Below, piece after piece: positions 32-63,359 of a stretch of DNA of 64,000 nt (its first letter is position 1; each line of letters opens with the position of its first letter). A program made the position numbers and the translations under genes. Location of the stretch: the NCBI RefSeq assembly GCF_001591405.1, contig NZ_BCUV01000003.1:1-64000 (forward strand), written 5' to 3'. The notes under the pieces are model-generated. The model saw nothing but the letters and a program-made list of their open reading frames with translations, was not told the DNA's origin and did no database searches. The stretch is from Janibacter terrae NBRC 107853 (GTDB lineage: Bacteria > Actinomycetota > Actinomycetes > Actinomycetales > Dermatophilaceae).

Positions 32-1483
32 GTGACCCCGACGCCCCCGCCGCCGCCCGGACAGCCGCCGGCCCCGCCGTCGTCGAGCCGCCCGGCGGAG
101 GACACCCTCTCCCGACGCGTGCTGCGTCGCTCCGCGCCGGACGAGCCGGAGTGGTTCCGCACCGCCTCGCGCTCGATCGCCCTCGCCGAGCAGGAGGCCA
201 GGACCGACTCGCGCGCGAAGGTCCTCGCCCAGCAGCAGGCCTACGAGGAGCAGCAGCGGGCTGCGCGCCTGGCTGCCCAGCAGCAGGCCGCCGCCGCGCA
301 GTACCAGCAGCACCAGGCGTGGCTGCAGCAGCAGCAGTACACCGCCCACTACGTGACCGCCCAGGCACAGGCCAACCCCACGCCGCGCCCGACGCTGCGG
401 ACCTGGCTGCTCGGCGGCACGGTGCTCATCGGCTCGCTCGTGCTCGTCCTGCTCTTCGCGCTGTACTACGGGTTCGCCTTCGGGGTCATCCTCACGCTCG
501 TGTCGCTGGTCGCCGCGCTCATCCCGCTGTGTCTCGTCCTGCCGATCTTCCTGTGGCTGGACCGCTTCGAGGCGGAGCCGCTGCGCTACCTCGTCACGGC
601 CTTCCTCTACGGCGCGCTCGTCTCGACCTTCCTCGCGATCTTCGCCAACACCCTCGGCGGGGCGGTCATCAGCTCGTTCGCCTCGTCGCCGCAGGACGTC
701 AGCACCCTCACCGCGGTGCTCGTCGCCCCGCCGGTCGAGGAGACGACGAAGGGGGTCTTCATCCTCGTCATGTGGTGGTTCATGCGGCGTGAGTTCAACG
801 GGCTCACCGACGGCGTCGTCTACGCGGGCATCGTCGCGGCCGGCTTCGCCTTCACGGAGAACATCCAGTACTTCGCGGGGGCGGCCACCGAGGCCGGCGC
901 CGCGGGCTTCGGCTGGACCTTCGTCCTGCGCGGTCTCGTCACCCCCTTCCTCCACCCGATGTTCACGTCGATGACGGGCATCGGCATCGGCGTGGCAGCG
1001 GTCTCCCGGTCGATGCCGGTCAAGATCATCGCCCCGGTCCTCGGGTGGTGCGCGGCGGTGCTCCTCCACGGCCTGTGGAACCTCAGCGCCTCCACCGGGC
1101 TGGTCGGCCTGGGCATTGGCCTGGTCGTCGGCTTCGGTGCCTTCGTCAGCTTCGTCTGCTTCGTCGTGTGGACCCGCAAGCGCGAGGGGCGGGTCATCGG
1201 CCAGCACCTCATGGCCTACGTCGACACGGGCTGGATCTCGGGCGACGAGGTCGGGATGCTCGCGGACATGAAGGCCCGCCGCCAGGCGCGCCAGTGGGCC
1301 AAGTACCACCGGGGGCCGGGTGGGTTGAGCTCGATGCGCAGCTTCCAGGACTGCGCCTCGGAGCTGGCGCTGCTGCGCTTCCGGATGCTCAGCCACGAGG
1401 CCGACCCGCGCTCGCTCGAGCGTGAACGGGTCCTGCTGGACTCGATGACCGCCCGACGGCGGGAGTTCGCCGGCGCGGTCTGA
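32..1483 (+). CDS. PrsW-family intramembrane metalloprotease
   Basis: This is a polytopic membrane protein of the PrsW family, whose members cut other membrane proteins such as anti-sigma factors. The first ~120 residues are a proline- and glutamine-rich cytoplasmic tail (runs of Q and A). Hydrophobic segments follow, carrying the family signature: PPVEETTKG (the E-E-x-x-K motif), then FAFTENIQYF and LHPMFTSMTG, which supply the other metal-site residues. The charged C-terminal ~100 residues look cytoplasmic. The GTG at 32 is the first start in the window, but the frame is open back to base 2 with no stop, so the true start may lie upstream of the window. The substrate is unknown. Confidence 0.85.
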   Translation: MTPTPPPPPGQPPAPPSSSRPAEDTLSRRVLRRSAPDEPEWFRTASRSIALAEQEARTDSRAKVLAQQQAYEEQQRAARLAAQQQAAAAQYQQHQAWLQQQQYTAHYVTAQAQANPTPRPTLRTWLLGGTVLIGSLVLVLLFALYYGFAFGVILTLVSLVAALIPLCLVLPIFLWLDRFEAEPLRYLVTAFLYGALVSTFLAIFANTLGGAVISSFASSPQDVSTLTAVLVAPPVEETTKGVFILVMWWFMRREFNGLTDGVVYAGIVAAGFAFTENIQYFAGAATEAGAAGFGWTFVLRGLVTPFLHPMFTSMTGIGIGVAAVSRSMPVKIIAPVLGWCAAVLLHGLWNLSASTGLVGLGIGLVVGFGAFVSFVCFVVWTRKREGRVIGQHLMAYVDTGWISGDEVGMLADMKARRQARQWAKYHRGPGGLSSMRSFQDCASELALLRFRMLSHEADPRSLERERVLLDSMTARRREFAGAV

Positions 1484-1501
1484 CCGCGGTCGACGCGATC
1501 C

Positions 1502-2179
1502 TCAGGTCGTGACGACCTCGAGGGGCTCGTCCGTGAGGGCTGCGACCGCGGCGCGGTGGCTCGCGGCGTCGAGCGTCACGTCGGCGAGCGAGATCCGCGC
1601 CGGTCGCGGCTCGGTGGCCCGCCAGTCGACGAGGAGCGCGGCCTCCAGCGGCCCGGAGACCAGGACCTCGGCGGGGTCGACGACCAGGCCGTGACCGGTC
1701 GCCTTGAGGACCGCCTCCTTGCGGGCCCACACCCGGGCGCGGGCGACGAGCAGCTCGTGGCCCTCGAGGCCGTCGAAGCCGGCGACCTCCTCGCGCGCCA
1801 GCGTGGCCCGGGCGAAGCTGTCGAAGTCGGCATCCGTCAGGTCCTCGGTGTCGACCCCGACCTCGACCCCCTTCGCCACCGCCACGACGGCGACCTCGGG
1901 GGTGTACGAGAGGGAGAAGTGCCAGCCGTCGCCCTCGACGAGGACCGGTTTGCCGTGGAGGTCGCTGCGGCAGGTCGTGCACCGGCGCTCGAGGACGAGC
2001 CCGGCGGGGTCGCGCTCGACCAGCTCGCCGAGGACCCGTCGCACGAGCGCGTGGCCCGTGACGAAGGGGGCCGGCTGTCGCTTGCGGTGCGCCCGGGACA
2101 TCTCGCCGGGGTCGAGGAGCGCCAGATCGGCGGGGGAGTGGCCCACCCCCGCCTCACGGACCAGGACGCGGACGGACAT
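1502..2179 (-). CDS. 4'-phosphopantetheinyl transferase (Sfp/AcpT type)
   Basis: The predicted enzyme moves the phosphopantetheine arm of CoA to a carrier-protein serine, activating acyl- or peptidyl-carrier proteins. The 225-residue length fits the Sfp class. The diagnostic motifs are GVDTED (family GVDIE, Mg2+ binding) near residue 108 and WARKEAVLKATGHGL (family WxxKEAxxK) near residue 150. The ATG at 2179 gives MSVRVLV. It converges on the PrsW-like gene with an 18-nt gap and has no carrier-protein or NRPS/PKS neighbour, so its target cannot be inferred from context. Confidence 0.85.
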   Translation of the reverse strand: MSVRVLVREAGVGHSPADLALLDPGEMSRAHRKRQPAPFVTGHALVRRVLGELVERDPAGLVLERRCTTCRSDLHGKPVLVEGDGWHFSLSYTPEVAVVAVAKGVEVGVDTEDLTDADFDSFARATLAREEVAGFDGLEGHELLVARARVWARKEAVLKATGHGLVVDPAEVLVSGPLEAALLVDWRATEPRPARISLADVTLDAASHRAAVAALTDEPLEVVTT

Positions 2180-2209
2180 GTCCCGATCATGTCAGGTCGC
2201 GACGCTCAC

Positions 2210-2215
2210 TACACT
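2210..2215 (+). promoter_or_regulatory. Probable -10 element for tRNA-Arg
   Basis: TACACT fits the actinobacterial TANNNT -10 pattern and lies 38 nt before the mature 5' end of tRNA-Arg. The -35 region is not clearly recognisable. Confidence 0.35.
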
Positions 2216-2253
2216 GGGCTCCGCCCGTGCGTGGACACCGCCACGCCGGGCGT

Positions 2254-2330: not shown

Positions 2331-2378
2331 CGCGCCGTCACGCCGAGCGTTCGGGCAGGACAGCCGGGCGCACGTATA

Positions 2379-4115: not shown

Positions 4116-5770
4116 GCCCGCGCAACCCCCTTCGTCGTGGCGGTGGGGACGCCTCCGCGCTGTCCGTCGAGGAGCTGACCGCCCGGGCCGACGCACTCTC
4201 CGAGGCCCTCGAGGCCGGGGGCAGCCGACTCGAGCCGCAGCCGGCCGGCCGGGCCCGCGAGGTCGTCGCCAAGGTCTCCGAGCGGACCGCGCTCGTCGGC
4301 GGGCACACGGTCGTCGCGCTCGCCGGGGCGACCGGCTCCGGCAAGTCCTCGCTCTTCAACGCCCTCGTCGGCGCCGACGTGGCCCGGGTGGGCCAGCGGC
4401 GCCCGACGACGTCCACGCCGACCGCCGCCGTCTGGGGCGGTGAGCCCGCCGGCGAGCTGCTCGACTGGCTCTCCGTGGGCACCCGGCACCAGGTGCAGGA
4501 GGGTGCCTCCGACCTCGACGGGCTCGTCCTGGTCGACCTGCCCGACTTCGACTCGCGCGAGGCCGCCCACCGCGAGGAGGCCCGGCGGGTCCTCGAGCTC
4601 GTCGACGTCTTCGTCTGGGTCACCGACCCCCAGAAGTACGCCGACGCCGTGCTCCACGACGACTACGTCGCGGTGCTGCGCGAGTACGGCGCCGTGACGA
4701 TCGTCGTGCTCAACCAGGTCGACCGGCTGCGTGGGGAGGGCCAGGCCCAGGTGGCCGCCGACCTTTCCCGGCTGCTCGAGCGCGATGGCCTGCAGACCCA
4801 CGAGGTCATCGGGACCTCCACGCGGACGGGGGAGGGGCTCGAGACCCTGCGCGCCCGCCTCGCCGATGCCGTCCAGCACTCCGATGCCGCCCGCCACCGG
4901 CTCGGCGCGGACCTGCGCACGGCCGCAGAGGGCCTGCGTGCGTCCGTGGCCGATCGGGAGGCAGCGATCCCCGACCGCGCCCGCGGGGAGCTCGTCGACG
5001 CCCTGGCCCGCAGTGCGGGCGTCCCGACCGTCGTCGAGGCCGTGGCCCGGGACTTCCGCATGGAGGCCTGGGCGCGCACCGGCTGGCCCTTCACCCGCTG
5101 GGTGCGGGCCTTCCGGCCGGCGCCGCTCAAGCGGCTACGGCTCGACCGCACGAGCGACGGGACCCCGGACATCACCGAGCAGGACGTGCGCGCGGTGCTC
5201 GGCCGCTCCTCCATCCCGCCACCGGCGCCCGCGGCCCGCGCGAGCGTCGACCTCGCGGCCCGTCGCATCGGCACCGCCGCCGGCGAGGGTCTGCCGACCC
5301 GCTGGGCCGACGCGGTCGCCGATGCCGCGAGACCTGCCGACCACGACCTCGCCGACGAGCTCGACCAGGCCGTCATGCGCACCCCCCTGCGCAGCCGCAA
5401 GCCGATGTGGTGGACGGTCTTCGGGCTGCTGCAGGTCCTCCTGGCGATCACCGCCGTCGTCGGCCTCGTGTGGCTCGTCGTCATCGCGCTCGCCGGCTGG
5501 CTGCAGCTGCCGGAGATCCCGACCTTCGACGTCGGGCCCTTCGCGACCCCCTTCCTGCTGCTCGTCGGCGGGCTGCTGGGTGGGCTGCTGCTCGCCGCGA
5601 TCGCCCGCTGGCTGGCGAGGATCGGTGGTCGCAAGCGAGCCGGGGTCGTCGACAAGCGGCTGCGCCGCTCCATCGGCGAGGTCGCGGACGCCCGGGTCAT
5701 CGAGCCCGTCGAGACCGTGCTCGGCGAGCACGCCCGAGCTCGCGCGGGCATCGAGCGCGCCCACGGTTGA
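4112..5770 (+). CDS. Dynamin-like/YfjP-type GTPase, second of a pair
   Basis: This partner of the preceding GTPase is 552 residues long. The P-loop GATGSGKSS is at residues 72-80, with G3 DLPDFDS near 140 and G4 LNQVDRL near 198. The C-terminal third has two clear transmembrane helices (one starting WWTVFGLLQVLL, one around PFLLLVGGLLGGLLLAAI) separated by a short loop, then a basic tail, so it should be anchored in the membrane. A heterotypic dynamin-like complex acting at the cell membrane, perhaps in division, is the family-based expectation. The substrate membrane and the division link are not visible in the sequence. Confidence 0.75.
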   Translation: MSPRNPLRRGGGDASALSVEELTARADALSEALEAGGSRLEPQPAGRAREVVAKVSERTALVGGHTVVALAGATGSGKSSLFNALVGADVARVGQRRPTTSTPTAAVWGGEPAGELLDWLSVGTRHQVQEGASDLDGLVLVDLPDFDSREAAHREEARRVLELVDVFVWVTDPQKYADAVLHDDYVAVLREYGAVTIVVLNQVDRLRGEGQAQVAADLSRLLERDGLQTHEVIGTSTRTGEGLETLRARLADAVQHSDAARHRLGADLRTAAEGLRASVADREAAIPDRARGELVDALARSAGVPTVVEAVARDFRMEAWARTGWPFTRWVRAFRPAPLKRLRLDRTSDGTPDITEQDVRAVLGRSSIPPPAPAARASVDLAARRIGTAAGEGLPTRWADAVADAARPADHDLADELDQAVMRTPLRSRKPMWWTVFGLLQVLLAITAVVGLVWLVVIALAGWLQLPEIPTFDVGPFATPFLLLVGGLLGGLLLAAIARWLARIGGRKRAGVVDKRLRRSIGEVADARVIEPVETVLGEHARARAGIERAHG

Positions 5771-10870: not shown

Positions 10871-12126
10871 GACCGCACCCCGTGGGTCGCCTCGCCGTAC
10901 ACCGTCGTGAGGCGGGCGAGGTGCTCCTGCGTCGTCGTGCTGCGTCGACGCACCTCGTCGACGAGCGCGGCGCTCCCGGCCAGCCGGGAGCGAAGTGCGG
11001 TGTCGAGGGTGGCAGCCCACCCGTGGACGTCGTCGTGCCGCACCGTCCAGCCGCTCGCCGGACCGACCATCTCCGGCATGCCGCCGACCCGCGACACGAC
11101 GGCCGGCACGCCGGCCATGAGGCTCTCGCGGAGGGCGAAGGGGGAGTTCTCGTGGCACTGCGACGGGTGTGCGGTGACGATCGCGCGGTCGAGTGCCCGG
11201 CGCACGCCCGCGGCGTCGGTCACCCCGGGCAGGTCGACCCGGGGGATGCCGTCCGCCGCGATCATCGATCTCAGCTCGCCGGCCTGGCTCCCTTCGCCGA
11301 TGAGCTCGACCCGCACCTCCGGGTGGAGGTGTGCGATCCGCCGCCACGCCTGCAGCAGCACGTGTGGCCCCTTGAGCGGGACGAGCCGGCTGGCGAAGAC
11401 GATCGCGTCCCGCGGACCGTCCGAAGGGAGCACGTCCTCGCCCTGCGAGCGCCACGGCAGGTCGAGGTACTCGACCGCTGCGGCCGGCCACCCCTCGTCG
11501 GCGATGACGCCCCTCATGAAGTCCGACGGCGCGAGGATGTGCGGGCCGGACCGTCGCCACTGCGGGGCGGAGACGAGCTGTTCGGCGGCACCGAGGGCGC
11601 TGACCGCGAGGCTGCCCTTCATGCACCGGCGCCGCACGGGGGCGAGGGCGCGGTGCAGCGATGAGCGGCCGACGCAGTCGGTGCAGATGGTGCCGTCCGG
11701 ATCGCTGAAGAGGGTCTGGTTGGCGCACACCAGCTTGTACTCGTGGGCGGTGAGGACGGCGGGGAGACCCGCCTCGCGGACGGCTCGTACGACCGATGAC
11801 GTCAGCTGGTAGCAGGTCCCGTGGAAGTGCACGATGTCGGGACGGTGCTCGCGGATCGCTCGTCGCATCGTGACCCCGGCCTCCGGCGACCACACCGACA
11901 CGGCCGCGCTGCGCCAGCGGTCGGGGGAGCCGGGCTCGAAGGACCGACGTCGGGTGAACCACGTGGGCGCCCCCGACAGGTCCATCGGGGACCGCCCCGG
12001 TGGCGGCGTCATCGCCACCACCCCGACGTCGTGGCCGTCGGCGACGAGGGAGCGCACGAGCCAGCCCACGTAGGTCTCCACGCCGCCGACGTGGTGCGCG
12101 AACTTGCTGACCTGGAGGATGCGCAC
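10867..12126 (-). CDS. Glycosyltransferase family 4
   Basis: This is a retaining GT-B sugar transferase, cytoplasmic or membrane-associated. The N-terminal domain begins VRILQVSKFAHHVGGVETY, the acceptor-side glycine loop. The C-terminal donor domain has FASRLVPLKGPHVLL and the E-x7-E motif in HENSPFALRESLMAG, followed by PAVVSRVGGMPE. Near residue 130-165 a cluster of four cysteines (one in LVCAN, two in ICTDC, one in RRCMKG) suggests a structural metal site, seen in one GT4 subgroup. The GTG start at 12126 lies one base after the flippase stop. The sugar donor cannot be told from sequence. Confidence 0.85.
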   Translation of the reverse strand: MRILQVSKFAHHVGGVETYVGWLVRSLVADGHDVGVVAMTPPPGRSPMDLSGAPTWFTRRRSFEPGSPDRWRSAAVSVWSPEAGVTMRRAIREHRPDIVHFHGTCYQLTSSVVRAVREAGLPAVLTAHEYKLVCANQTLFSDPDGTICTDCVGRSSLHRALAPVRRRCMKGSLAVSALGAAEQLVSAPQWRRSGPHILAPSDFMRGVIADEGWPAAAVEYLDLPWRSQGEDVLPSDGPRDAIVFASRLVPLKGPHVLLQAWRRIAHLHPEVRVELIGEGSQAGELRSMIAADGIPRVDLPGVTDAAGVRRALDRAIVTAHPSQCHENSPFALRESLMAGVPAVVSRVGGMPEMVGPASGWTVRHDDVHGWAATLDTALRSRLAGSAALVDEVRRRSTTTQEHLARLTTVYGEATHGVRS

Positions 12127-16507: not shown

Positions 16508-17113
16508 ATGCCCTCACTCCTGGAGCAGGTCGCCGGTCGCACGAGCATCGTCGACGAGGTGCTCACCGGCTCCCTGGGCGAAGGGGAGGTCCTCTCCGGC
16601 GTGGAGATGGTCGGGTGCACGCTGCGCGACGCGTCCGTCGCGGGAGCGACGCTGTCGGGGGTGCGGCTCGAGGGCTGTGCCGTGGAGCGGGTCGACCTCT
16701 CGCGTGCCCGCCTGCCCGACTCGGTCGTCGATGGCTGCAGGTTCGTCGGGTGCAAGGCACTCGCGACGTCGTGGGCGATGCTGCGCGCCCCGGTGCTCGT
16801 GCCCGACCCGAGCGTCTGGGTGGACTGTCAGCTGTCGATGGGCAGCTTCGCCGGGCTCGACCTCACGGGCACCCGCTTCGAGCGGTGCGTGCTGACGGAC
16901 GCCGACTTCGACGGGGCCACCCTGGTCGAGGTCGTCTTCGACGAGTGCTCCCTGGGTGGGGCCCGCTTCGTCCGGGCGGACCTGCGGCGCGCCGACCTGC
17001 GCACTGCGCGCGACTTCGTCGTCGACGTGCGCGATGCCAGGGTCGAGGGGCTCCGGGCGGACCTGACCGGTGCGCTCGGGCTCCTCACCCCCTTCGGCAT
17101 CGTCGTGGGGTAG
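16508..17113 (+). CDS. Pentapeptide-repeat protein
   Basis: This is a 201-residue soluble protein built from A(D/N)Lxx-like five-residue repeats that should fold as a right-handed quadrilateral beta-helix. Examples are GCTLRDASVAGATLSGV early and FVRADLRRADLRTARD near the C-terminus, interrupted around residues 85-115. Such proteins can mimic DNA (gyrase protection, MfpA/Qnr type), but most have no known role. The repeats here are less regular than in MfpA, and no fluoroquinolone-resistance context is present. It stands alone, divergent from the polysaccharide operon and convergent with the TetR gene. Confidence 0.8.
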   Translation: MPSLLEQVAGRTSIVDEVLTGSLGEGEVLSGVEMVGCTLRDASVAGATLSGVRLEGCAVERVDLSRARLPDSVVDGCRFVGCKALATSWAMLRAPVLVPDPSVWVDCQLSMGSFAGLDLTGTRFERCVLTDADFDGATLVEVVFDECSLGGARFVRADLRRADLRTARDFVVDVRDARVEGLRADLTGALGLLTPFGIVVG

Positions 17114-19054: not shown

Positions 19055-19111
19055 CCCGTGCGCGCACCCGAGTTTGAGAGACTGGGGGAGACCACGAGCG
19101 AAGGGGGTCCG

Positions 19112-19603
19112 GTGAGCGACACCGTCCACGTCATCACGGTCTCCGACCGGGTGAGCTCCGGCGCGCGCGAGGACGTCTCCGGCGACGCCGCAGTCGAGCT
19201 CCTGCAGGCGGAGGGCCACACGGTCACCACGAGCCTCGTGCCCGACGGCGCGGACGCCGTCGAGGCAGCGCTGCGTGCCGCGCTCGCCGACGGCGCCCGA
19301 CTCGTCGTCACCACGGGGGGCACCGGTCTCTCCCCGCGCGATCGCACCCCCGAGGGGACCGCGCCCGTGCTCGACCGCGAGGTGCCCGGGCTGGCGGAGC
19401 TGCTCCGTGCCGAGGGCGCGCGGCAGACCCCCTTCGCCGCCATCTCGCGCGGTCTCGTCGGCATCGTCGACGCGAGCGACGAGCGTCCCGGCGCGCTCGT
19501 CGTCAACCTCCCCGGCAGCACGAAGGGGGTGACGCAGGGCCTGCAGGTCCTGCTGCCCCTCGTCGGCCACGTCCTCGACCAGATCTCCGGAGGCGACCAC
19601 TGA
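19112..19603 (+). CDS. mog: MogA/MoaB-type molybdopterin adenylyltransferase
   Basis: The enzyme adenylates molybdopterin before metal insertion by MoeA. The conserved VITVSDRVSSG, VVTTGGTGLSPRD and NLPGSTKG motifs of the MoaB/Mog fold are all present. I chose the GTG at 19112 because GAAGGGGG precedes it at suitable distance; the frame is open to 19058, where the extra residues do not match the family. It is the first gene of a plus-strand trio with moaE and moaA (overlapping stops and starts), facing the large minus-strand nitrate/Moco unit. Confidence 0.88.
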   Translation: MSDTVHVITVSDRVSSGAREDVSGDAAVELLQAEGHTVTTSLVPDGADAVEAALRAALADGARLVVTTGGTGLSPRDRTPEGTAPVLDREVPGLAELLRAEGARQTPFAAISRGLVGIVDASDERPGALVVNLPGSTKGVTQGLQVLLPLVGHVLDQISGGDH

Positions 19604-38739: not shown

Positions 38740-38869
38740 CGTGATCTCCTTCGTCGTGGCCCTCTGGGTGGCGGGGCCTGCATGACGAGAGTGGGTCCGC
38801 GGGCGTCCCGCCGGTAAGGGACAGGCGCCTGCCGCCGACGGGACGATGTCCCGGGACGCGCGAAGGGGG

Positions 38870-42945: not shown

Positions 42946-43497
42946 TCAGCGGATGAAGCCGTGGATCCTCTCGACCGTCGCCGCGGTGAGCGCCGCGTCG
43001 TACCCCGGCAGGTCCGGGTCGGTGTAGAGGTGGCCGCGGCCGGGCGCCACGTGGTCCTCGAAGGGGGCCCCACTCACCTCGACCGCCGCGCCGAGGGCGG
43101 TCACGTCGGTCGGCGCGATCCACGGGTCGTCGGCGTACCGGTGCACCTGGACGGGCACGCCCGACCACGCGTGCCGCGGGGCGGCGACGGAGTGGAGCAG
43201 CACCGCCGCGCGGGCCAGCGGTCGTCGCGCGGCCAGCCGCTGCGCGTACCACGCACCGAGCGAGAACCCGGCGAGCACCGTCTCGGGCGGCAGGGACGCG
43301 ACGAGCTCGCGCACCGTCTCGAAGTACTCGGGGTGGGCGTCGCGGTGCGCGATGCCCTCGCGCTCGCCGTCGAAGACATGACCCTCGTAGTAGTCCGGCA
43401 CCTCGACCTCGTGACCCCGCTCGCGCAGCAGGTCGGCGAAGGCGTGGACCCCCGGGCGCAGCCCGAGCGCCGAGTGCATCAGCAGGATCGTGGCCAT
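42946..43497 (-). CDS. Dienelactone-hydrolase-like alpha/beta hydrolase
   Basis: This 183-residue single-domain hydrolase starts MATILLMHSALGLRPGV. The nucleophile elbow is AGFSLGAWYAQ (G-x-S-x-G), the acid is probably in YADDPW, and the histidine in GRGHLYTDPD. The Cys of classical dienelactone hydrolases is replaced by Ser, as in many family members of unknown substrate. The ATG at 43497 follows the alpha-glucosidase stop by two bases, so it is the last gene of that unit. Confidence 0.85.
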   Translation of the reverse strand: MATILLMHSALGLRPGVHAFADLLRERGHEVEVPDYYEGHVFDGEREGIAHRDAHPEYFETVRELVASLPPETVLAGFSLGAWYAQRLAARRPLARAAVLLHSVAAPRHAWSGVPVQVHRYADDPWIAPTDVTALGAAVEVSGAPFEDHVAPGRGHLYTDPDLPGYDAALTAATVERIHGFIR

Positions 43498-43498: not shown

Positions 43499-45214
43499 TC
43501 AGCGAAGGGAGGCCCACACCGTGACGTCACCCGGCACCCGGGTGTCGCCCAGGTCGGCGGAGGAGACCAGCACCTCCGCGCCGTCGGGCAGGTCCACGGG
43601 CGCACCCGAGAGGTTCACGAGCACGAGCGTACGGGTCCCGTCGGGCGCGGTCGAGACGTAACCGAGGACGTCCTCGGGCAGGCCCTCGACCTCGGCCAGC
43701 CCGCCGAGCCCGAGGCGGCGGTCGCGGCGCAGCGCCAGCAGGGTGCGGTAGAGCTCGAGGGTGGACCCGGCGACCCCGGTCTGGGCGTCCACGGCGAGCT
43801 CGGAGTACGAGGCGGGCTGGGGCAGCCACGACGCGCCGGTGTCGTTGAACCCGAGGGCCGGGGCCCCCCTCGTCCACGGCATCGGGACGCGGCAGCCGTC
43901 CCGTCCGAGCTCGACGCCGCCCGTGCGGGCGAAGGCCGGGTCCTGGCGGACCTCGTCGGGCAGGCTCGTGTGCTCCGGCAGGCCGAGCTCCTCGCCCTGG
44001 TAGACGTAGGCGCCCCCGGGCAGCGCGAGCATGAGGGCCGTCGCGGCCCGGGCGCGGCGCACGCCCAGCTCGGCGTCGGGTTGCGGGTCGGCCGCGCCGA
44101 TGCCGTTGGGTCGCGGCTGCCCGACCGCCAGGCCGAACCGGCTCGCGTGCCGCAGCACGTCGTGGTTGCTGAGGACCCACGTCGACGGCGCGCCGACCGA
44201 GTCGTTGGCCGCGAGCGAGCGCCGCACCGCGTCACGCAGCGCCCCCGCATGCCACTGCGTCTCGAGGAAGTCGAAGTTGAAGGCCTGGTGCATCTCGTCG
44301 GGGCGCACGTACCGCGCCAGCCTGTCGGCGGGCGCGACCCACGCCTCGGCGCACAGGATCCGCTCGGGTGCGCCGTAGGAGTCGAGGAGCGCGCGCCAGG
44401 AGCGGTAGATCTCGTGGACGCCGTCCTGGTCCCAGTACGGCGCCTCGTGGGTGACCTCCATGAGCCCGCCCGGGTGCTTGCCGAAGGGCGGGAAGGTCGG
44501 GTCCTTGACGAGCCCGTGGGCGACGTCGACGCGGAACCCGTCGACGCCGCGGTCGAGCCAGAAGCGCAGCGTCGTCTCGAAGTCGGCGCGCACCTGCGGG
44601 TTGGTCCAGTCCAGGTCCGGTTGGCTCGGGTCGAAGAGGTGCAGGTACCACTGGCCGGGCGTGCCGTCGGCCTCGAGCACCCGCGTCCAGGCCCCACCGC
44701 CGAAGTTGGCCAGCCAGTTCGTCGGCGGGAGCGACCCGTCCTCGCCGAGCCCGTCACGGAAGACGTAGCGTGCGCGCTCGGGGCTGCCCGGGCCGGCGGC
44801 CAGCGCCTCCCGGAACCACGCGTGGTCGCTGGAGGTGTGGTTGGGCACGAGGTCGACGACGACGCGCAGCCCGAGCTCGTGGGCGCGCGCGATCATGGCG
44901 TCCGCGTCGTCGAGGGTGCCGAAGAGCGGGTCGACGTCCCGGTGGTCGGCGACGTCGTAGCCGGCGTCGCGCTGCGGGGAGCGGTAGAAGGGGGAGAGCC
45001 ACACCGCGTCGACGCCGAGGTCGCGCAGGTGCTCCAGGCGCGAGGCGATGCCGGGCAGGTCGCCGACGCCGTCCCCGTCGCCGTCGGCCCAGGACCGCGG
45101 GTAGATCTGGTAGATCACGGCGTCGCGCCACCACGGGGAGCCCGCGGGGTCGGCGGCGTGGATCTCGTGCAGGGCGAAGGGGGTGCCCCCGGCCTTCGTG
45201 GAGGGGTCGTTCAC
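43499..45214 (-). CDS. aglA: Alpha-glucosidase (GH13)
   Basis: This retaining glycosidase acts on alpha-1,4/1,6-glucosides such as maltose, isomaltose or sucrose. The (beta/alpha)8 regions are DLVPNHTSSDH (region I), GFRVDVAHG (nucleophile Asp), CAEAWV (acid/base Glu) and LSNHDVLRH (transition-state Asp), over 571 residues. There is no signal peptide. It overlaps the haemoglobin gene by 4 bp. The alpha-glucosidase/trHbO neighbourhood also exists in M. tuberculosis (Rv2471 aglA, Rv2470 glbO, from memory). Confidence 0.93.
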   Translation of the reverse strand: MNDPSTKAGGTPFALHEIHAADPAGSPWWRDAVIYQIYPRSWADGDGDGVGDLPGIASRLEHLRDLGVDAVWLSPFYRSPQRDAGYDVADHRDVDPLFGTLDDADAMIARAHELGLRVVVDLVPNHTSSDHAWFREALAAGPGSPERARYVFRDGLGEDGSLPPTNWLANFGGGAWTRVLEADGTPGQWYLHLFDPSQPDLDWTNPQVRADFETTLRFWLDRGVDGFRVDVAHGLVKDPTFPPFGKHPGGLMEVTHEAPYWDQDGVHEIYRSWRALLDSYGAPERILCAEAWVAPADRLARYVRPDEMHQAFNFDFLETQWHAGALRDAVRRSLAANDSVGAPSTWVLSNHDVLRHASRFGLAVGQPRPNGIGAADPQPDAELGVRRARAATALMLALPGGAYVYQGEELGLPEHTSLPDEVRQDPAFARTGGVELGRDGCRVPMPWTRGAPALGFNDTGASWLPQPASYSELAVDAQTGVAGSTLELYRTLLALRRDRRLGLGGLAEVEGLPEDVLGYVSTAPDGTRTLVLVNLSGAPVDLPDGAEVLVSSADLGDTRVPGDVTVWASLR

Positions 45215-46546: not shown

Positions 46547-49095
46547 CGGGCCGAGTCTGCGTCACGCTCCTGGGCAGCGACTGCACGCGCCACGGCGTCG
46601 CGGCTCTCGGCGACGGTGCGCCGCAGGCCCGCCGGTGCCGACGCGTGCTCGTCGAGCCAGGCCTGGGTCGTCGCGAGCAGCTCCGGCCCGGCCAGCGCCA
46701 TCGGGTAGAAGCCGATGACGATGCCCTCGGCGATGGCGTGCGTGCGCGTGGACCACACGTCCTCGAGGACGTCGTGGTAGCGCTGGACGAAGGGGGTGAG
46801 CAGCGCCGGGTCGGTGGTCCGGCCGAACCCGAGCGCGTGCGCGTCGACGACCGAGTTGGGGGTGTCGGTCGCGACGACGCCCGCCTGCCACGCGGCCTCC
46901 TTGGCCTGCGCCGTGGGGATGCTCGCGGCGGCGCGGGCGGCGCGCTCACGACCGGTGGCCGTGTTGTCCCCCTTCGCCTCCGTGGCGATCGCGTCGGCGT
47001 CGGCGGCACCGGCCGCGGCGAGGCCGGTGAGCAGGGTCCACCGCATGTCCGTGTCGACGGCCAGGCCCTCGAGGGTCGTGCTGCCGTCGAGCAGCCCTGC
47101 GACGAAGGCGGTGTCGTCACCGGGTGCGAGCAGGCCGCAGTGCCCCGTGACGAGCTGCAGCTGGGCGTCGCTGCCGGGCGCGGCCCGGCGCGCCAGCTCG
47201 GCGAGGTGGCCGACGACCTGCGCGCGCACCTGCTCGCGGTGCTCCGGTGCGCTGTACGTGAGGACCGCCGTCGTGACCTGGCCGATGAGCGCACGCAGCA
47301 GGACCGAGTCGGTGAGCCCGTCGAGGACCGGCAGGACGAGCTCGACGTAGGAGCGCGCCGCCATCTCGCCGTCGCGGGTCATGTCCCATGCCGAGGCCAG
47401 GGCCAGCGACGCCGGGAGCGACTCGGTGAAGGCCGTCGGGTGCGCGAGCAGCGTGGCGAGGGAACGCTCGTCGAGGCGCAGCTTGGCGTAGGCCAGGTCG
47501 TCGTCGTTGACGAGCAGCAGGTCGGGCTGGCGCTGCCCGACGAGCTGGGGCAGCGGGGTGCGCTCGCCCTCGACGTCGACCTCGATGCGCTCGCGGCGCT
47601 GCAGCGTGCCGTCGACGAGGTCGTAGACACCCACGGCGAGACGGTGCGGGCGCAGGGTCTCGAAGCCCTGGGCGAAGGTCTGCTCGATGACGGCGTCGAC
47701 GTAGTGCCCGCGGTCGTCGACCTCGACGAGGGGCCGCAGGGTGTTGACCCCGGCGGTCTCCAGCCACAGCCTCGACCAGGCACGCAGGTCACGGCCGGAC
47801 GTCGCCTCGAGCTCGTCGAGCAGGTCGTCGAGCGTCGTGTTGCCCCACGCGTGCTTGGCGAAGTACGCGCGCAGGCCGTCGCGGAAGGGCTCGCGGCCGA
47901 CGTAGGCGACGAGCTGCTTGAGGACGGAGGCCCCCTTCGCGTACGTGATGCCGTCGAAGTTGACCTCGACGTCGGCGAGGTCGCGGATCGGCGCGACGAT
48001 CGGGTGGGTCGAGCTCAGCTGGTCCTGGCGGTAGGCCCAGGCCTTCTCGTGGGTGCAGAAGGTCGTCCACGCGTCGGTCCACCCGGTGGCCTCGGCCTGG
48101 CAGGTCGTCGAGGCCCACTCGGCGAAGGACTCGTTGAGCCACAGGTCGTTCCACCACTTCATCGTCACGAGGTTGCCGAACCACATGTGGGCCAGCTCGT
48201 GGAGGACGGTGAGGGCGCGGCGCTCGACGAGCGCGTCGGGCACCTTGGAGCGGAAGACGTACATCTCGTGGAAGGTCACGCAGCCCGCGTTCTCCATCGC
48301 GCCCATGTTGTACTCCGGCGTGAAGACCTGGTCGTACTTGATGAAGGGGTACGCGCGGTCGAACTCCTCCTCGAAGAAGGCGAAGCCCGCCTTGGTCAGC
48401 GCGAAGAGGTTGTCGGCGTCGAGGTACTGCGTGAGGGACTTGCGGCAGAAGATGCCCAGCGGCACCTCCTTGTCCCGCGACGTCAGGGAGTCCCGCACGA
48501 CGTCGTAGGGGCCGGCGACGAGGGCGGTGATGTAGCTGCTCATCCGCTCGGTCGGGGCGAAGGCCCACGTCGCGACGCCGTCACGGACCGGCGTCGGCTC
48601 GGGGGTGGGGGAGTTGCCGATGACCTGCCAGTGCGCGGGGGCGGTGACGGTCAGGGTGAAGCTCGCCTTGAGGTCGGGCTGCTCGAAGACGGGGTACATC
48701 CGGCGGCTGTCCGGGACCTCGAACTGCGTGTACAGGTAGACCTCGCCGTCGACCGGGTCGACGAAGCGGTGCAGGCCCTCGCCGGTGTGCATGTACCGAC
48801 CCGTCGCACGGATCGTCACGACGTTGTCCTCGGCGAGGTCGTCGAGGCGGATGCGGTGGTCCGCGAAGAGGTCGGTGGCGTCCAGCTGCACGCCGTTGAG
48901 CTCCACGGACTCCACCGACTCACCGATGAAGTCGACGAAGGTGGAGGCGCCCCCCTTCGCGCTGAAGCGGATGGTGCTCGTCGTGGCGAAGGTCGTCTCC
49001 GACGTCGTCAGGTCCAGCGTGATCTCGTGGCTGTCGACGGTGACGACGGCCGCCCTCTCGGCGGCCTCCTCACGGGTGAGGTTCTTGCCGGGCAC
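46543..49095 (-). CDS. pepN: Aminopeptidase N (M1 family)
   Basis: This 850-residue zinc metallopeptidase removes N-terminal residues from peptides, probably in the cytoplasm downstream of Clp. The exopeptidase motif is GAMEN near residue 263, the zinc site is HELAHMWFGN with the third ligand in NESFAEW, and the ERAP1-like C-terminal domain is present. I chose the GTG at 49095 (VPGKNLTREEA, the usual actinobacterial start), with GAAGGAG 7 nt upstream. The frame runs further but without homology. It overlaps mscS by 4 bp and is divergent from the DsbA-like gene. Confidence 0.95.
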   Translation of the reverse strand: MPGKNLTREEAAERAAVVTVDSHEITLDLTTSETTFATTSTIRFSAKGGASTFVDFIGESVESVELNGVQLDATDLFADHRIRLDDLAEDNVVTIRATGRYMHTGEGLHRFVDPVDGEVYLYTQFEVPDSRRMYPVFEQPDLKASFTLTVTAPAHWQVIGNSPTPEPTPVRDGVATWAFAPTERMSSYITALVAGPYDVVRDSLTSRDKEVPLGIFCRKSLTQYLDADNLFALTKAGFAFFEEEFDRAYPFIKYDQVFTPEYNMGAMENAGCVTFHEMYVFRSKVPDALVERRALTVLHELAHMWFGNLVTMKWWNDLWLNESFAEWASTTCQAEATGWTDAWTTFCTHEKAWAYRQDQLSSTHPIVAPIRDLADVEVNFDGITYAKGASVLKQLVAYVGREPFRDGLRAYFAKHAWGNTTLDDLLDELEATSGRDLRAWSRLWLETAGVNTLRPLVEVDDRGHYVDAVIEQTFAQGFETLRPHRLAVGVYDLVDGTLQRRERIEVDVEGERTPLPQLVGQRQPDLLLVNDDDLAYAKLRLDERSLATLLAHPTAFTESLPASLALASAWDMTRDGEMAARSYVELVLPVLDGLTDSVLLRALIGQVTTAVLTYSAPEHREQVRAQVVGHLAELARRAAPGSDAQLQLVTGHCGLLAPGDDTAFVAGLLDGSTTLEGLAVDTDMRWTLLTGLAAAGAADADAIATEAKGDNTATGRERAARAAASIPTAQAKEAAWQAGVVATDTPNSVVDAHALGFGRTTDPALLTPFVQRYHDVLEDVWSTRTHAIAEGIVIGFYPMALAGPELLATTQAWLDEHASAPAGLRRTVAESRDAVARAVAAQERDADSAR

Positions 49096-58786: not shown

Positions 58787-59499
58787 CCGACGGAGCCTTC
58801 GTCTCCCCCTTCGCCGTCGAGGACCCACAGGCCCTCGCCGCGACCGAGCGCGCCCAAGGTGGTCTCGCCCGCAGCATCGCCCGGCTCGTCGACGCCTGCG
58901 TGCGCACCCGCGTCGACGACGCGACGCTCGGCACGACCGCCGAGGCGGTCGACGCACTGACCGCGCGCCTCCTCGAGGTCGCCCAGGACGGGCCGCTCGG
59001 CATCGAGACCTCGAGCGACGGTCGGCTGCGTGACCATGCCAACCCCATGGTCGGCCTGCGCAACCCGCTCGCCCCGCCGCTGCTCGTGACCGGTGACGAC
59101 GAGGGCACGACGACCTGCACGTTCACCCTCGGTGCGGCCTACGAGGGGCCGCCGGGGTGCGTCCACGGGGGCATCGTCGCCGCCGTCCTCGACCAGGTCG
59201 CCGGCTCGGTGCCCGCCCGGCTGGGCAGGCCGGGTCTCACCGCCTACCTGAGCACGACCTACCGCCGCCCCACCCTCCTCGGTCACGAGCACGTCTGCCG
59301 GGCACGGGTCGATCGCGTCGACGGGTGGAAGACCTTCGTCCGGGGCGAGATCCGCGACGGCCAGGCCCGGGTGACCGCCGAGGTCGAGGCGCTCTTCGTC
59401 GTGCCGCGCTGGGCCCGGGAGCACCTCGCGCCCCCGACCGGCGACGCGATCGACGTCCCCTCCACGGTCGACGCGGCGAAGGGGGACACCACGCCGTAG
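58783..59499 (+). CDS. PaaI-like hot-dog thioesterase
   Basis: In this 238-residue protein the second half is a hot-dog domain with [19 protein letters not shown] (PaaI-type HGG and catalytic Asp region) and [12 protein letters not shown]. The N-terminal ~85 residues are helical and acidic, with no recognised domain. It should hydrolyse an acyl- or aryl-CoA. The ATG at 58783 has GAGGAGG 6 nt upstream; an in-frame ATG at 58753 lies within the operator and has no ribosome binding site. It is possibly under TetR-type control from an unlinked regulator. Confidence 0.82.
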
Positions 59500-59502: not shown

Positions 59503-59509
59503 GGTCGTC

Positions 59510-61777
59510 ATGACTGACTCCGACGACGTCCTGCCCGACCCCGTGCCGGGCGTGGACCAGCCCGAGGCGCTCGAGGTCGAGGTGCCGGGTGCGCCCAACT
59601 TCGCGGACATCTTCTACCCCGCCCGTCCCAGGGCACTGCGGCCCAGGGCCCGGCTCCGACCGCAGGGTGCACCCTCGGCGGCGCAGGTGCGCTCGGGCGA
59701 GCCGGTCGGCTCCAACCCCGTCTACGTGGAGTGGCTGCGGGGCCAGTCGATGCTCCAGGACGCCAAGGAGATCGCCGGTCAGTTCACCGGTATCGGGGCG
59801 ATGTGGCAGAACCCCTTCGCCCACCCCGACCCGCGCGCCGCGGTGCAGACGGCCTCGGTGTGGTTCACCGCCTACCCGATCTCGATGATCACCCGGCCCG
59901 GTCGGTCCTTCCTCGCCTCGCTGGCCGACCCGCGGCTGTGGGAGACCTTCCAGCGCATCGGGATCCAGGCGCTGCACACCGGGCCGGTCAAGCGGGCCGG
60001 CGGCCTGTCGGGGTGGAACCCCACGCCGAGCGTCGACGGGCACTTCGACCGCATCGGCACGCACATCGACGAGCTCTTCGGCAGCGAGGACGACTACCGG
60101 CGCATGTGCGAGGTCGCGGCCCAGCACGAGGGGACCGTCATCGACGACATCGTCCCGGGGCACACCGGGAAGGGAGCCGACTTCCGCCTGGCCGAGCTCG
60201 GCGTCGACGACTACCCCGGGATCTACCACATGGTCGCGATCCCGCAGGAGGAGTGGCACCTGCTGCCGGACGTGCCCGAGGGCCGAGACTCGGTCAACCT
60301 CGACGAGGCGGCCGAGGCGGCACTCGCCGAGGCCGGCCACATCATCGGCGAGCTGCAGCGGGTGATCTTCCACGTGCCCGGTCTGAAGGACACCAACTGG
60401 TCGGCGACCGCCCCGGTGACCGGTCCCGACGGGGTGACGCGGCGCTGGGTCTACCTGCACTACTTCAAGGAGGGGCAGCCGTCGATCAACTGGCTCGACC
60501 CCACCTTCGCCGGGATGCGGCTGGTCATCGGTGACGCCCTGCACAGCCTCGGTGACCTCGGGTCAGGGGGTCTGCGGCTGGACGCCAACGGCTTCCTGGG
60601 GGTCGAGCGCACCCTCGACGTCGGCCCGGCCTGGTCCGAGGGCCACCCGCTCTCGGAGGCCGCCAACCAGCTCATCGGGTCGATGGTGCGCAAGGTCGGC
60701 GGGTTCACCTTCCAGGAGCTCAACCTCTCGATCGAGGACATCCGCGACACCGCGGCCGGGGGTGCCGACCTGTCGTACGACTTCGTCAACCGGCCCGCGT
60801 ACCACCACGCGCTCGCGACCGGGGACACCGAGTTCCTGCGCCTGACGCTGCGCCAGGCGATGGAGCTCGGCGTCGACGCGGCGGGGCTGGTCCACGCCCT
60901 GCAGAACCACGACGAGATGACCTACGAGCTGGTCCACTTCGCCAGCCGCCACCGCGAGGACGAGTTCACCTTCCGCGGGGAGGCGACGACGGGGGAGGAG
61001 CTCGCCGCGACGATCCGGCAGGAGCTCACCGACGCCCTGACCGGCGAGGCCGCGCCGTACAACCTCGTCTTCACGACCAACGGGATCGCCTCCACGACCG
61101 CATCGGTGGCGACCGCGGCCCTCGGGCTGCGCGACCTCGACGCACTCACCGAGGAGGACGTCGAGCGGGTGCGGCGCGCGCACCTGCTCCTCGCGATGTT
61201 CAACGCGCTCCAGCCCGGGGTCTTCGCCCTGTCGGGGTGGGACCTCGTCGGGGCGCTGCCCGTCCCCGCGGACGAGATCGAGCCGCTGCTGCGAAGGGGG
61301 GACACGCGCTGGATCCACCGTCCCGCCTACGACCTGCTCGACGTCGACCCCGGCGCGACCGGCTCGGCCTCCGGGATGCCGCGCGCGCGGACCCTCTACG
61401 GCTCGATCGAGGCCCAGCTGGAGGACCCGACCTCCTTCGTCAGCCGACTCAAGGACATGCTGCACCTGAGGGGCTACTTCGGTCTCGCGACGACGCGCCA
61501 GGTCGACGTCCCCGACGTCGCGCACCCGGCGATGCTGGTGATGGTCCACGACTACGAGCTCGTGCCGGGTCAGGGGCAGGTCACGGTCCTCAACTTCTCC
61601 GCGGAGCCGGTGAGCGGCACCGTCATCAGCGAGCACCTGCCGCCGGGGTCGTGCCTGATGGACATGGGCGACGGCTCGACCTTCGGCGAGGTGGACCAGC
61701 TCCACGGCTTCCACGTCGAGCTCGAGGGCCACGCCGGGCTCTCGCTGCTCGTCACCCCGCCCAAGGAGCAGTCGTGA
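59510..61777 (+). CDS. GH13-family glycoside hydrolase/transglycosylase, trehalose-synthase-like
   Basis: This is a 755-residue member of the alpha-amylase clan. The catalytic regions are [14 protein letters not shown] (nucleophile Asp), [10 protein letters not shown] (acid/base Glu) and [11 protein letters not shown] (stabilising Asp). A C-terminal beta-domain is present ([19 protein letters not shown] in part). The N-terminal ~75 residues are Pro/Arg-rich and not part of the barrel. There is no signal peptide, so it is cytoplasmic; a role in trehalose or maltose interconversion is plausible, but the exact reaction is not proven. It is followed by a tiny membrane protein with a 4-bp overlap. 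Confidence 0.8.
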
Positions 61778-61899: not shown

Positions 61900-61908
61900 G
61901 CGGATCGC

Positions 61909-61926
61909 GTTGCGCTCACGGCGAAC
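61909..61926 (+). promoter_or_regulatory. ClgR-type box upstream of clpP1
   Basis: The core CGCTCACGGCGAAC fits exactly CGCYNANRGCGWWS from the actinobacterial ClgR consensus as I remember it; the two upstream A/T positions are G here. It lies ~95 nt before the clpP1 start, as expected for ClgR activation of clpP1P2. Confidence 0.6.
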
Positions 61927-62021
61927 ACGTGCGGGAGCCGGGAAACATGCGCAGGGAGCGGACGTTAGGGTCAGTGAAAGTCGTGAACCACGAGAGCAAC
62001 CGCCGGACGGCGGAGAAGCGA

Positions 62022-62654
62022 GTGAGCGTGAGCAACAGCAGCGAGATCGTCGCGGCCGGCCCGCAGGGCGGGATGGGTCTCGACGACCACATCTACCAGC
62101 GCCTCCTCAAGGAGCGCATCATCTTCCTGGGCTCGGACGTGCGTGACGACAACGCCAACGCCATCTGCGCCCAGATGCTGCTCCTCGCCGCGGAGGACCC
62201 CGGCAAGGACATCTGGCTGTACATCAACAGCCCGGGCGGGTCGATCTCCGCCGGCATGGCGATCTACGACACGATGAAGTGGATCCCCAACGACGTCGCC
62301 ACCGTGGCCATGGGCCTGGCCGCCTCGATGGGCCAGTTCCTGCTCTCCGCGGGCACGCACGGCAAGCGCTACGCCACGCCGCACGCCCGGGTGATGATGC
62401 ACCAGCCCTCCGGCGGCATCGGCGGCACGGCCTCGGACATCAAGATCCAGGCCGAGCAGATGCTCTTCGTCAAGACGCAGATGGCCGAGCTCATCGCCGA
62501 GCACACCGGGCAGTCCGTCGAGCAGATCCACCGGGACTCCGACCGCGACCGCTGGTTCGGTGCGGCGGAGGCCAAGGAGTACGGCTTCGTCGACCACGTC
62601 TTCGAGCGCTCCGACCAGGCCGGCCGCGGGGACGACAACCCCATCAGCGACTGA
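62022..62654 (+). CDS. clpP1: ATP-dependent Clp protease proteolytic subunit ClpP1
   Basis: This 210-residue serine peptidase forms the ClpP1P2 barrel with ClpP2 and works with ClpX/ClpC. The active site is Ser102 in [11 protein letters not shown], His127 in VMMHQPSGG and an Asp in the RDSDRDRWF region. The N-terminal [12 protein letters not shown] is typical. I chose the GTG at 62022 because GGAG lies 6 nt upstream; GTG at 62028 is an alternative, and the frame is open to 61896. It is 30 nt upstream of clpP2. Confidence 0.95.
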
Positions 62655-62684
62655 GCCCCGACCCGAGCCTTCCCAGGAGAACCC

Positions 62685-63359
62685 ATGAACTTCGACGCAC
62701 AGCTGCGCACCCACCAGCCGGGCTCGGCCCCCCTTCGCCCCGGGCCGTCCAGCCGCTACATCCTGCCCAACTTCGAGGAGCGCACCTCGTACGGCATGAA
62801 GCGGATGGACCCGTACACCAAGCTCTTCGAGGACCGCATCATCTTCCTCGGCGTGCAGGTCGACGACGCCTCCGCGGACGACATCATCGCCCAGCTGCTC
62901 GTGCTGGAGTCGCAGGAGCCCGAGCGCGACATCCTGATGTACATCAACAGCCCGGGTGGCAGCTTCACCGCCATGACGGCGATCTACGACACGATGCAGT
63001 ACATCCGCCCGGACATCCAGACCTTCGTCATCGGCCAGGCGGCCTCCGCCGCAGCGGTGCTCCTCGCCGCCGGCGCCCAGGGCAAGCGCTTCGCCCTGCC
63101 CAACAGCCGCATCCTCATCCACCAGCCCGCGCTGGCCGGTGGCGAGTACGGCCAGGCCTCGGACATCGAGATCCAGGCCAACGAGGTGCTGCGGATGCGC
63201 ACCTGGCTCGAGGAGACCTGGGCCAAGCACTCCGGCAAGACGGTCGAGGAGGTCCGCGAGGACATCGAGCGCGACAAGATCCTCTCGGCGCAGGAGGCCA
63301 AGGAGTACGGCCTCATCGACGAGGTGCTCACCCCGCGCAAGGCCTCGCTCGAGGACTGA
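62685..63359 (+). CDS. clpP2: ATP-dependent Clp protease proteolytic subunit ClpP2
   Basis: This 224-residue partner of ClpP1 has Ser121 in IGQAASAAAVLL and His146 in ILIHQPALAGG, with FEDRIIFLGVQVDD near the N-terminus. The N-terminal ~40 residues, with Arg/Pro/Ser, include a propeptide removed on assembly in homologues. The ATG at 62685 is preceded by AGGAGA. A hairpin terminator follows 8 nt after the stop. Confidence 0.96.
   Translation: MNFDAQLRTHQPGSAPLRPGPSSRYILPNFEERTSYGMKRMDPYTKLFEDRIIFLGVQVDDASADDIIAQLLVLESQEPERDILMYINSPGGSFTAMTAIYDTMQYIRPDIQTFVIGQAASAAAVLLAAGAQGKRFALPNSRILIHQPALAGGEYGQASDIEIQANEVLRMRTWLEETWAKHSGKTVEEVREDIERDKILSAQEAKEYGLIDEVLTPRKASLED

Follow-up and report, generated by a model that had tools for sequence, protein, structure and literature searches.

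A short over-represented word of Janibacter and Marihabitans as a putative DNA uptake sequence, with different words in related genera of the Dermatophilaceae

The distribution of the 9-mer CGAAGGGGG was analyzed in a stretch of 64,000 nucleotides of the Janibacter terrae NBRC 107853 genome (the window; contig NZ_BCUV01000003.1, positions 1 to 64,000), which holds among others narG, pepN, tig and genes for a NarL-type response regulator, a deferrochelatase and a maltose alpha-D-glucosyltransferase. A word scan gives 37 copies, 20 on the plus and 17 on the minus strand (Table 1); the chance level, from 100 dinucleotide shuffles, is a mean of 0.92 and a maximum of 4. A preliminary description of the window, made from its letters alone, had counted about 37 copies with the same division between strands, given coordinates for 16 of them, and put the 8-mer CGAAGGGG at about 48 copies. 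All 16 coordinates are correct, both counts are exact, and the over-representation that it reported is confirmed and had been understated.

The whole genome (G000; 3.58 Mb in 11 contigs) contains 1,797 copies, 905 forward and 892 reverse, i.e. about 0.50 per kb, and the reversed word, which serves as a composition-matched control, occurs 22 times (14 and 8). Details were studied in a sample of 444.6 kb composed of the window and 20 further stretches of this genome, to which the results of this and the next three paragraphs refer unless another scope is given. The 230 copies of the sample are divided 115/115 between strands, and both are represented in each 20-kb piece that holds at least two copies. 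The word is preceded by G (73%) followed by A or G (84%), which extends the consensus to GRCGAAGGGGG; the flanks beyond carry almost no information. Ranking of 9-mers against a Markov model, proposed in the preliminary description and run here at order 3 on 9-mers counted at least 25 times, gives CGAAGGGGG the top score, with 230 copies against 10.7 expected. One-letter variants show a milder excess (observed/expected 52/8.4 for CGAAGGGAG, 36/6.2 for CGAAGGGGA and 23/9.0 for CGAAGGGGT). The palindrome CCCTAGGG is over-represented as well, with 26 counts over both strands, i.e. 13 sites, vs 1.1.

The abundance of CGAAGGGGG is not a matter of codon usage. Within genes 181 copies were located, 48 are intergenic and one lies on a gene edge, and the density is 1.08 per kb between genes vs 0.45 per kb within them. 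Thirty within-gene synonymous shuffles of 437 genes predict 28.0 genic copies (sd 3.4), far below the number observed. The excess concerns all six classes of frame and strand: by frame, 4, 51 and 33 sense copies are found vs 0.10, 7.83 and 0.77 in the null, and 9, 58 and 26 antisense copies vs 0.10, 17.20 and 0.40. Registers with rare codons hold 13 copies vs about 0.2 expected. It had been proposed that most coding copies use one frame; the register xCG-AAG-GGG / CCC-CTT-CGx does hold 109 of the 181 genic copies (60%), but copies in the remaining registers likewise far exceed the null, and the enrichment thus extends beyond Lys-Gly and Pro-Phe contexts. Neither of the two results that the preliminary description had named as refuting it was therefore obtained in this sample. 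An artefact of codon context or mutational bias in a 72% GC genome, for which this favoured register would speak, therefore deserves practically no credit: the intergenic and all-frame excess argues against it, as do the shuffles, the rare registers, the scarcity of the reversed control and the 167 other genomes of the family that lack the word.

The balance between strands bears on another alternative, a site of chromosome organisation. FtsK orienting polar sequences (KOPS), architecture imparting sequences (AIMS) and Chi are skewed to the leading strand. No such skew is observed for CGAAGGGGG in the whole genome or in the sample, and the 19 genomes that bear the word use both strands equally (chi-square 9.1 on 19 degrees of freedom), which argues against polar segregation-type sites. 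About 1,800 sites would suit a nucleoid protein; however, the strands are balanced locally as well as genome-wide, the places of the word shift among sister species at about the rate of like 9-mers, and hairpin pairing is left unexplained, so that a site of the KOPS, Chi, AIMS or nucleoid-protein class appears very improbable. Both alternatives raised in the preliminary description, a nucleoid or segregation site and codon context, are weakened by these results.

Most copies are not in close pairs. Those with a neighbour within 80 bases form 18 pairs, all inverted: 12 have plus-minus order (9 intergenic) and 6 minus-plus order (1 intergenic). Five of the nine intergenic plus-minus pairs, that of tig included, were folded, and all five have z between -6.1 and -9.5; the word thus forms hairpins between genes. 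An inverted pair at the base of the tig terminator had been described earlier, and both its coordinates and its folding (-53.7 kcal/mol, z -7.3) bear this out; as no T-run follows the hairpin, we call it terminator-like only. Hairpins between genes whose stems have the word at their base are what a dispersed family of transcription terminators or of elements like repetitive extragenic palindromes (REP) would produce, but 181 of 230 copies lie inside genes, most stand outside close pairs and the flanks beyond G and R have almost no common sequence, which makes such a family extremely unlikely.

The word is limited to one clade. In a survey of the Dermatophilaceae (186 genomes, 53 genera), CGAAGGGGG is enriched in all 16 Janibacter genomes and in all three of the Marihabitans group (genus g35), with 797-1,939 copies or 42-133 times the control, and in none of the 167 others, which have at most 80 copies each. 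Only five genomes of a 396-genome sample of the order are enriched, all from Janibacter/g35; the maximum elsewhere is 101 copies, reached in a genome of 8.3 Mb. In a tree built from 25 ComEC proteins, Janibacter and g35 form one clade (support 100/99). Since ComEC is just 56-57% identical between the two genera, the word has probably been retained for long in both. G053 has the fewest copies of its genus (797), and a repeat with TGCCCGGGCA / AACTGCCCGG is frequent there (L128-L130).

The strongest support for an uptake sequence comes from related genera, which have a different word of the same anatomy. In samples of 100 kb, GCGGCATAC is found 66 times vs 1.5 expected in G049, and CGGCATAC 47 times vs 2.9 in G140 and 68 times vs 2.7 in G078. 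CGAAGGGGG has 1 to 3 copies in 100 kb of each of these and of G160, where no uptake-type word was found in the 100 kb. With carriers defined by thresholds of our own (at least 200 copies and at least 4 times the control), CGGCATAC is carried by 109 of the 167 family genomes outside Janibacter/g35, in 32 of 51 genera; 10 genomes are weakly raised, one is in between and 47 are at background, as are all 19 CGAAGGGGG genomes (7 to 41 copies). Outside the family, none of 362 genomes of the order sample exceeds 180 copies, and the one with 180 has a control of 195. The strands of CGGCATAC are balanced (chi-square 65.7 over 109 genomes), and all 13 of its pairs with a spacing of up to 60 bases are inverted (9 in G049, 2 in G140, 2 in G078), those of G049 being mostly GGTATGCCGC-loop-GCGGCATACC hairpins. 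Single species are low in CGGCATAC (G008 37, G113 50, G083 19) among congeners with hundreds to thousands; they would be natural losers or switchers, useful for finding the receptor.

Further words were looked for in 40-kb samples of 10 genomes. In G178, the only genome of its genus in the survey, CGGCATCC occurs 39 times vs 3.6 in 40 kb, and 44 times vs 5.1 in 58 kb outside the discovery DNA. In G083, whose congeners G084 and G085 carry CGGCATAC, GGCGYCGTAC occurs 19 times vs 1.6 in 40 kb; a further 60 kb, outside the discovery DNA, has 16 copies vs 1.8, and there it ranks first among 10-mers. It is tentatively taken as a fourth word, of one species. The 40-kb samples of G008, G095, G038, G001, G081, G020 and G022 gave no clear further word, and that of G184 showed only a local repeat. 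Such local families, unrelated to uptake-type words, are TAGGTGCGGA, found 15 times in L167-L168 (G184), and CTTCTGGAAC, found 15 times in L183-L185 (G178).

The same partition is visible in named organisms. A scan of named genomes with tad-1 TadA gave 80 loci, the closest of them mostly from Janibacter species. In 72 of these (eight short ones being excluded), the distribution of the two main words follows the genera. CGAAGGGGG has 10-19 copies per locus in Janibacter (five loci above 17 kb), 15 in Marihabitans, 2-5 in three shorter loci of this group and 0-1 elsewhere. CGGCATAC has 5-17 per locus in Knoellia, Pedococcus, Humibacillus xanthopallidus, Terrabacter, Terracoccus, Serinicoccus and three Ornithinimicrobium, and only 2 in that of O. 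laminariae. Hints from one locus each concern CGGCATCC (14 in Humibacillus DSM 29435, 10 in Nostocoides Soil756) and GAATGCCGC (9 in one Phycicoccus metagenome-assembled genome). Two records are likely mislabelled: L193, 'Streptomyces sp. UBA8490', whose TadA is identical to that of G000, and L205, 'Janibacter sp. HTCC2649', with 13 CGGCATAC and no CGAAGGGGG, unlike other Janibacter loci. The words are thus clade-specific dialects congruent with phylogeny; CGGCATAC and CGGCATCC have CGGCAT in common, which CGAAGGGGG lacks.

We then consider the fate of single sites. Aligned CGAAGGGGG sites of the window are kept in 8/29 cases in G057, 6/29 in G065 and 14/29 in G063 (28, 21 and 48%), 5/25 in G053 and, in the poorly aligned G064, 0/5, all Janibacter; in the sister genus 7/24 are kept in G091 and 4/18 in G092, and in the outgroup G049 0/11. 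A first control, 9-mers with a like series of strong and weak bases, is kept at 25% (G057), 25% (G065), 29% (G063), 18% (G053), 12% (G064), 17% (G091), 17% (G092) and 10% (G049); a second one, 9-mers of the form CGAAGNNNN, at 42, 40, 51, 28, 21, 29, 28 and 22% respectively. As evidence for a fixed local function, the conservation of sites is weak at best, and the second control is better kept than the word. Conservation in sister genomes, which the preliminary description had proposed to check, thus holds for the density of the word and is not supported above background for single sites. A density that is kept while most places have changed is as expected for biased uptake, not for local function. 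narG (28227-31949) has 74% identity in the sister G061 vs 83-87% in the other 11 genomes searched, a possible replacement. Its 87% DNA identity between G000 and two g35 genomes was considered as an exchange between genera and set aside because the outgroup G049 also has 83%.

The word is scarcer in recently acquired DNA: a prophage of G000 has 8 copies in 49.4 kb (0.16 per kb; 0.75 copies by chance) vs 0.50 per kb genome-wide. The three 20-kb pieces of G000 with least coding by our gene calls (L024, L026, L027) have 6, 1 and 6 copies. These data bear on a word comparable to highly iterated palindrome 1 (HIP1) of cyanobacteria, an extremely over-represented palindromic octamer: CGAAGGGGG might be kept by methylation, repair or a replication-linked process with no role in uptake. 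Its own extreme over-representation and clade-specific presence would fit this too. However, CGAAGGGGG differs from its reverse complement, its intergenic density is over twice the genic one, copies close together are without exception inverted and in many cases lie in hairpins, the word is thinner in the prophage, and neighbouring genera have a different word, or dialect, of the same anatomy. We regard this explanation as unlikely.

An uptake sequence accounts best for the word. The resemblance to DNA uptake sequences (DUS) noted in the preliminary description is supported by the word statistics, the inverted pairs and the second word with the same anatomy, and from these sequence-level data CGAAGGGGG is probably a DUS of Janibacter and of its sister group Marihabitans. 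The uptake preference, the receptor and the drive that we infer would operate as follows. On the cell surface, a DNA receptor (probably ComEA or one of the minor pilins of a Tad/Flp competence pilus) would prefer double-stranded DNA bearing the word; pilus retraction and ComEA/ComEC would import it, and recombination would replace local alleles. Because word-bearing alleles would enter more often than word-less ones, the word would accumulate on both strands and move among places while its density is maintained. Paired copies may have been co-opted as stem-loops after genes. When the preference of the receptor shifts, a new word would take over, which would give the dialects: CGGCATAC in most of the family, CGGCATCC in one genome, perhaps GGCGYCGTAC in one species, and CGAAGGGGG in Janibacter/Marihabitans. 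With somewhat less confidence, we think it probable that the whole family has one dialect-diversified Tad/Flp uptake system, evolved independently of those of Neisseriaceae and Pasteurellaceae, in which CGGCATAC is common and Janibacter with Marihabitans switched wholesale to the unrelated CGAAGGGGG, at about 800-1,900 sites per genome.

The machinery for such a system is present in the hosts, with a split comEC in G000 and several cut tad-1 loci. All 19 CGAAGGGGG genomes have a match to ComEC and to the tad-2 Flp pilin. ComEA, with SLBB and helix-hairpin-helix domains, was read in G064, G092 and G000, and adjoins a full ComEC in the first two. G000 has Tad loci of both kinds involved in competence of Micrococcus luteus: L068, of tad-1 type (tadA-B-C-flp-TadE-TadF-TadG), and L010, of tad-2 type (tadZ-A-B-C-flp-TadE-TadG), with a DUF4244 Flp pilin. 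Where most of the genus has a single ComEC match at about 1e-42, G062 has two weaker ones (best E 4.2e-31), and its comEC is perhaps split as well. Two further complete-looking Flp/Tad loci, L066 and L067, lie side by side in G000 (C7:1294-1313 kb); they were rejected as the general pilus of the clade, since in a search covering eight CGAAGGGGG genomes close TadA matches to L067 (62-100%) were found only in G000 and G057.

Several observations weigh against this interpretation. A serine-integrase prophage interrupts comEC of G000 near residue 270, and comEA is open beyond it. The prophage apparently consists of two tandem copies, whose integrase regions are identical at 4,884 of 4,900 positions. 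Competence genes are hit by mobile elements in other organisms too. The tad-1 locus is cut or degenerate in five genomes: at tadA in G064 (by an apparent restriction-modification island) and in G007, at tadC in G083 and G178, and by degeneration of tadA in G092; G064, G092 and G007 still have 1,251-1,939 words. In G083 and G178, tadC is cut by inserted DNA, and the stretches examined gave no tad-1 pilin genes. Moreover, ComEC is found in 180 and the tad-2 Flp pilin in 172 of the 186 genomes, genera in which no word was found (e.g. g46) included. Among the 14 genomes with no match to this pilin, eight have CGGCATAC; seven of these are rated at most 84% complete and one, G006, 100%. Co-occurrence of the word with competence genes, a check proposed in the preliminary description, thus holds for the 19 CGAAGGGGG genomes and is not specific to them; with the machinery in word-less genera and CGGCATAC in G006, which has no pilin match, gene presence does not yet explain which genomes carry a word.

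The search for a receptor among the Tad loci, the tad-2 pilin and seven tad-1 proteins gave none. The tad-2 Flp pilin was rejected as the word-determining receptor as it does not track the word across the 186 genomes. The seven tad-1 proteins were compared by stem-branch share and disjoint columns over 47 chosen loci (14 CGAAGGGGG-bearing and 33 others), of which 41-47 could be used according to the protein, and none is a clear outlier. Disjoint columns number 7 in tadC and 6 in TadF, four of these in the C-terminal tail, which differs between dialect groups; they are no more than a lead, since the CGAAGGGGG-bearing group is one clade and the difference is confounded with phylogeny. As to the words, some CGGCATAC genomes have a raised control (578 vs 1,660 for the word in G005), and codon-type words (e.g. 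CTCGCGCAG, 18 vs 2.7) outrank GGCGYCGTAC at 8 and 9 letters in the fresh DNA of G083, hence its tentative status. At the level of single sites, the conservation of 9-mers of the form CGAAGNNNN in G057, G065 and G063 exceeds or roughly equals that of CGAAGGGGG sites, so that selection on individual sites is not supported. Finally, CGAAGGGGG and CGGCATAC have no obvious core in common, and thus no core is shared by the family; in our view a shared core is a trait of the Neisseriaceae dialects and does not define uptake sequences as such.

Table 1. Copies of CGAAGGGGG in the window, and other loci discussed in the text. Genic, sense and antisense labels follow gene calls by a simple in-house scorer.
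Feature	Position	Strand	Context
CGAAGGGGG	747..755	+	sense in gene 119-1483
CGAAGGGGG	1867..1875	-	sense in gene 1502-2179
CGAAGGGGG	2062..2070	+	antisense in gene 1502-2179
CGAAGGGGG	4126..4134	-	antisense in gene 4112-5770
CGAAGGGGG	11136..11144	+	antisense in gene 10867-12126
CGAAGGGGG	17088..17096	-	antisense in gene 16508-17113
CGAAGGGGG	19099..19107	+	intergenic
CGAAGGGGG	19428..19436	-	antisense in gene 19112-19603
CGAAGGGGG	19521..19529	+	sense in gene 19112-19603
CGAAGGGGG	21059..21067	+	antisense in gene 21048-21287
CGAAGGGGG	22505..22513	-	sense in gene 22185-22664
CGAAGGGGG	24154..24162	+	antisense in gene 23888-25048
CGAAGGGGG	25878..25886	+	antisense in gene 25817-26524
CGAAGGGGG	29186..29194	-	sense in narG
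CGAAGGGGG	30835..30843	-	sense in narG, second register
CGAAGGGGG	32017..32025	+	antisense in gene 31946-32704
CGAAGGGGG	36560..36568	-	inverted pair with 36632, 63-base gap
CGAAGGGGG	36632..36640	+	inverted pair with 36560
CGAAGGGGG	38861..38869	+	intergenic
CGAAGGGGG, left arm of inverted pair, 9-base gap	41893..41901	+	inside NarL-type response regulator gene (best NCBIfam match below cut-off)
CGAAGGGGG, right arm of 41893 pair	41911..41919	-	same NarL-type regulator gene
CGAAGGGGG	43059..43067	+	antisense in gene 42946-43497
CGAAGGGGG	45175..45183	+	antisense in gene 43499-45214
CGAAGGGGG	46788..46796	+	antisense in pepN (46543-49095)
CGAAGGGGG	46968..46976	-	sense in pepN
CGAAGGGGG	47931..47939	-	sense in pepN
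CGAAGGGGG	48951..48959	-	sense in pepN
CGAAGGGGG, left arm of inverted pair, 9-base gap	54090..54098	+	inside deferrochelatase gene
CGAAGGGGG, right arm of 54090 pair	54108..54116	-	inside deferrochelatase gene
CGAAGGGGG	55310..55318	-	sense in gene 54243-55403
CGAAGGGGG	55418..55426	+	intergenic
tig (TIGR00115)	56091..57446		
CGAAGGGGG, left arm of terminator-like hairpin	57463..57471	+	16 bases past tig
CGAAGGGGG, right arm of tig hairpin	57498..57506	-	downstream of tig
CGAAGGGGG	58805..58813	-	antisense in gene 58783-59499
CGAAGGGGG	59477..59485	+	sense in gene 58783-59499
CGAAGGGGG	61292..61300	+	rarest register (CGA-AGG-GGG, R-R-G), maltose alpha-D-glucosyltransferase gene (59501-61777)
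CGAAGGGGG	62729..62737	-	antisense in gene 62685-63359
comEC prophage of G000	about C6:462490-551465		L072, L073, L074, L273; read outside C6:512001-535000
tad-1 interruption loci	L093, L173, L183; G007 C1:2397843/2412001; G092 C3:538795		

Neisseriaceae and Pasteurellaceae are both proteobacterial and Gram-negative. If the uptake reading of CGAAGGGGG is true, the Dermatophilaceae would be a third family with uptake words, Gram-positive and with a different pilus, and sequence-marked sex would evolve repeatedly. A 2025 paper names, in the part of its text available to us, only the former two as families with such words (PMC12616744), and no paper on an uptake sequence in Actinomycetota was among the matches listed by our literature search, which lay outside subscription papers and preprints. 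Two well-supported words in 34 genera, together with lineages that have another word or none found, would amount to a natural experiment in which the receptor could be sought, and raise the question of how a dialect switches when many hundreds of sites must change. In practice, transforming DNA for Janibacter and related genera should carry the right word.

Among known systems, the DUS of Neisseriaceae is present on both strands, has ComP as receptor and is diversified in dialects such as AT-DUS, eikDUS and kingDUS, and the uptake signal sequence (USS) of Pasteurellaceae differs in sequence from CGAAGGGGG. For the machinery the closest likeness is to M. luteus, whose transformation needs both tad loci according to the available part of PMC4322843: G000 has two tad loci plus ComEA/ComEC. 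A word search of the main text of that paper finds none of 'uptake sequence', 'DUS' and 'receptor'. The USS of Pasteurellaceae is described, in the accessible text of two papers, as a short word in many copies by which own and foreign DNA are told apart (PMC12616744, PMC7811141); CGAAGGGGG is likewise a short word in many copies, but in another host, with another pilus type and within a family that has more than one word. As far as the excerpt of PMC3630211 goes, Neisseriaceae DUS are 10-mers with 2,245-5,918 copies in the genomes named, lie in genes and as terminator-linked inverted pairs, follow phylogeny in their dialects, all of which share a core, and are not obvious in five genomes. CGAAGGGGG is unrelated to them in sequence, has no core in common with the other words of its family, and belongs to a Gram-positive host with a candidate Tad/Flp pilus, in which no ComP-like receptor was identified. 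In its other sequence-level properties, as a short over-represented word found in genes and as inverted pairs, with dialects by clade and some genomes in which no word was found, it matches the Neisseriaceae dialects as that excerpt describes them, and it is on this likeness that we take CGAAGGGGG as a putative uptake sequence.

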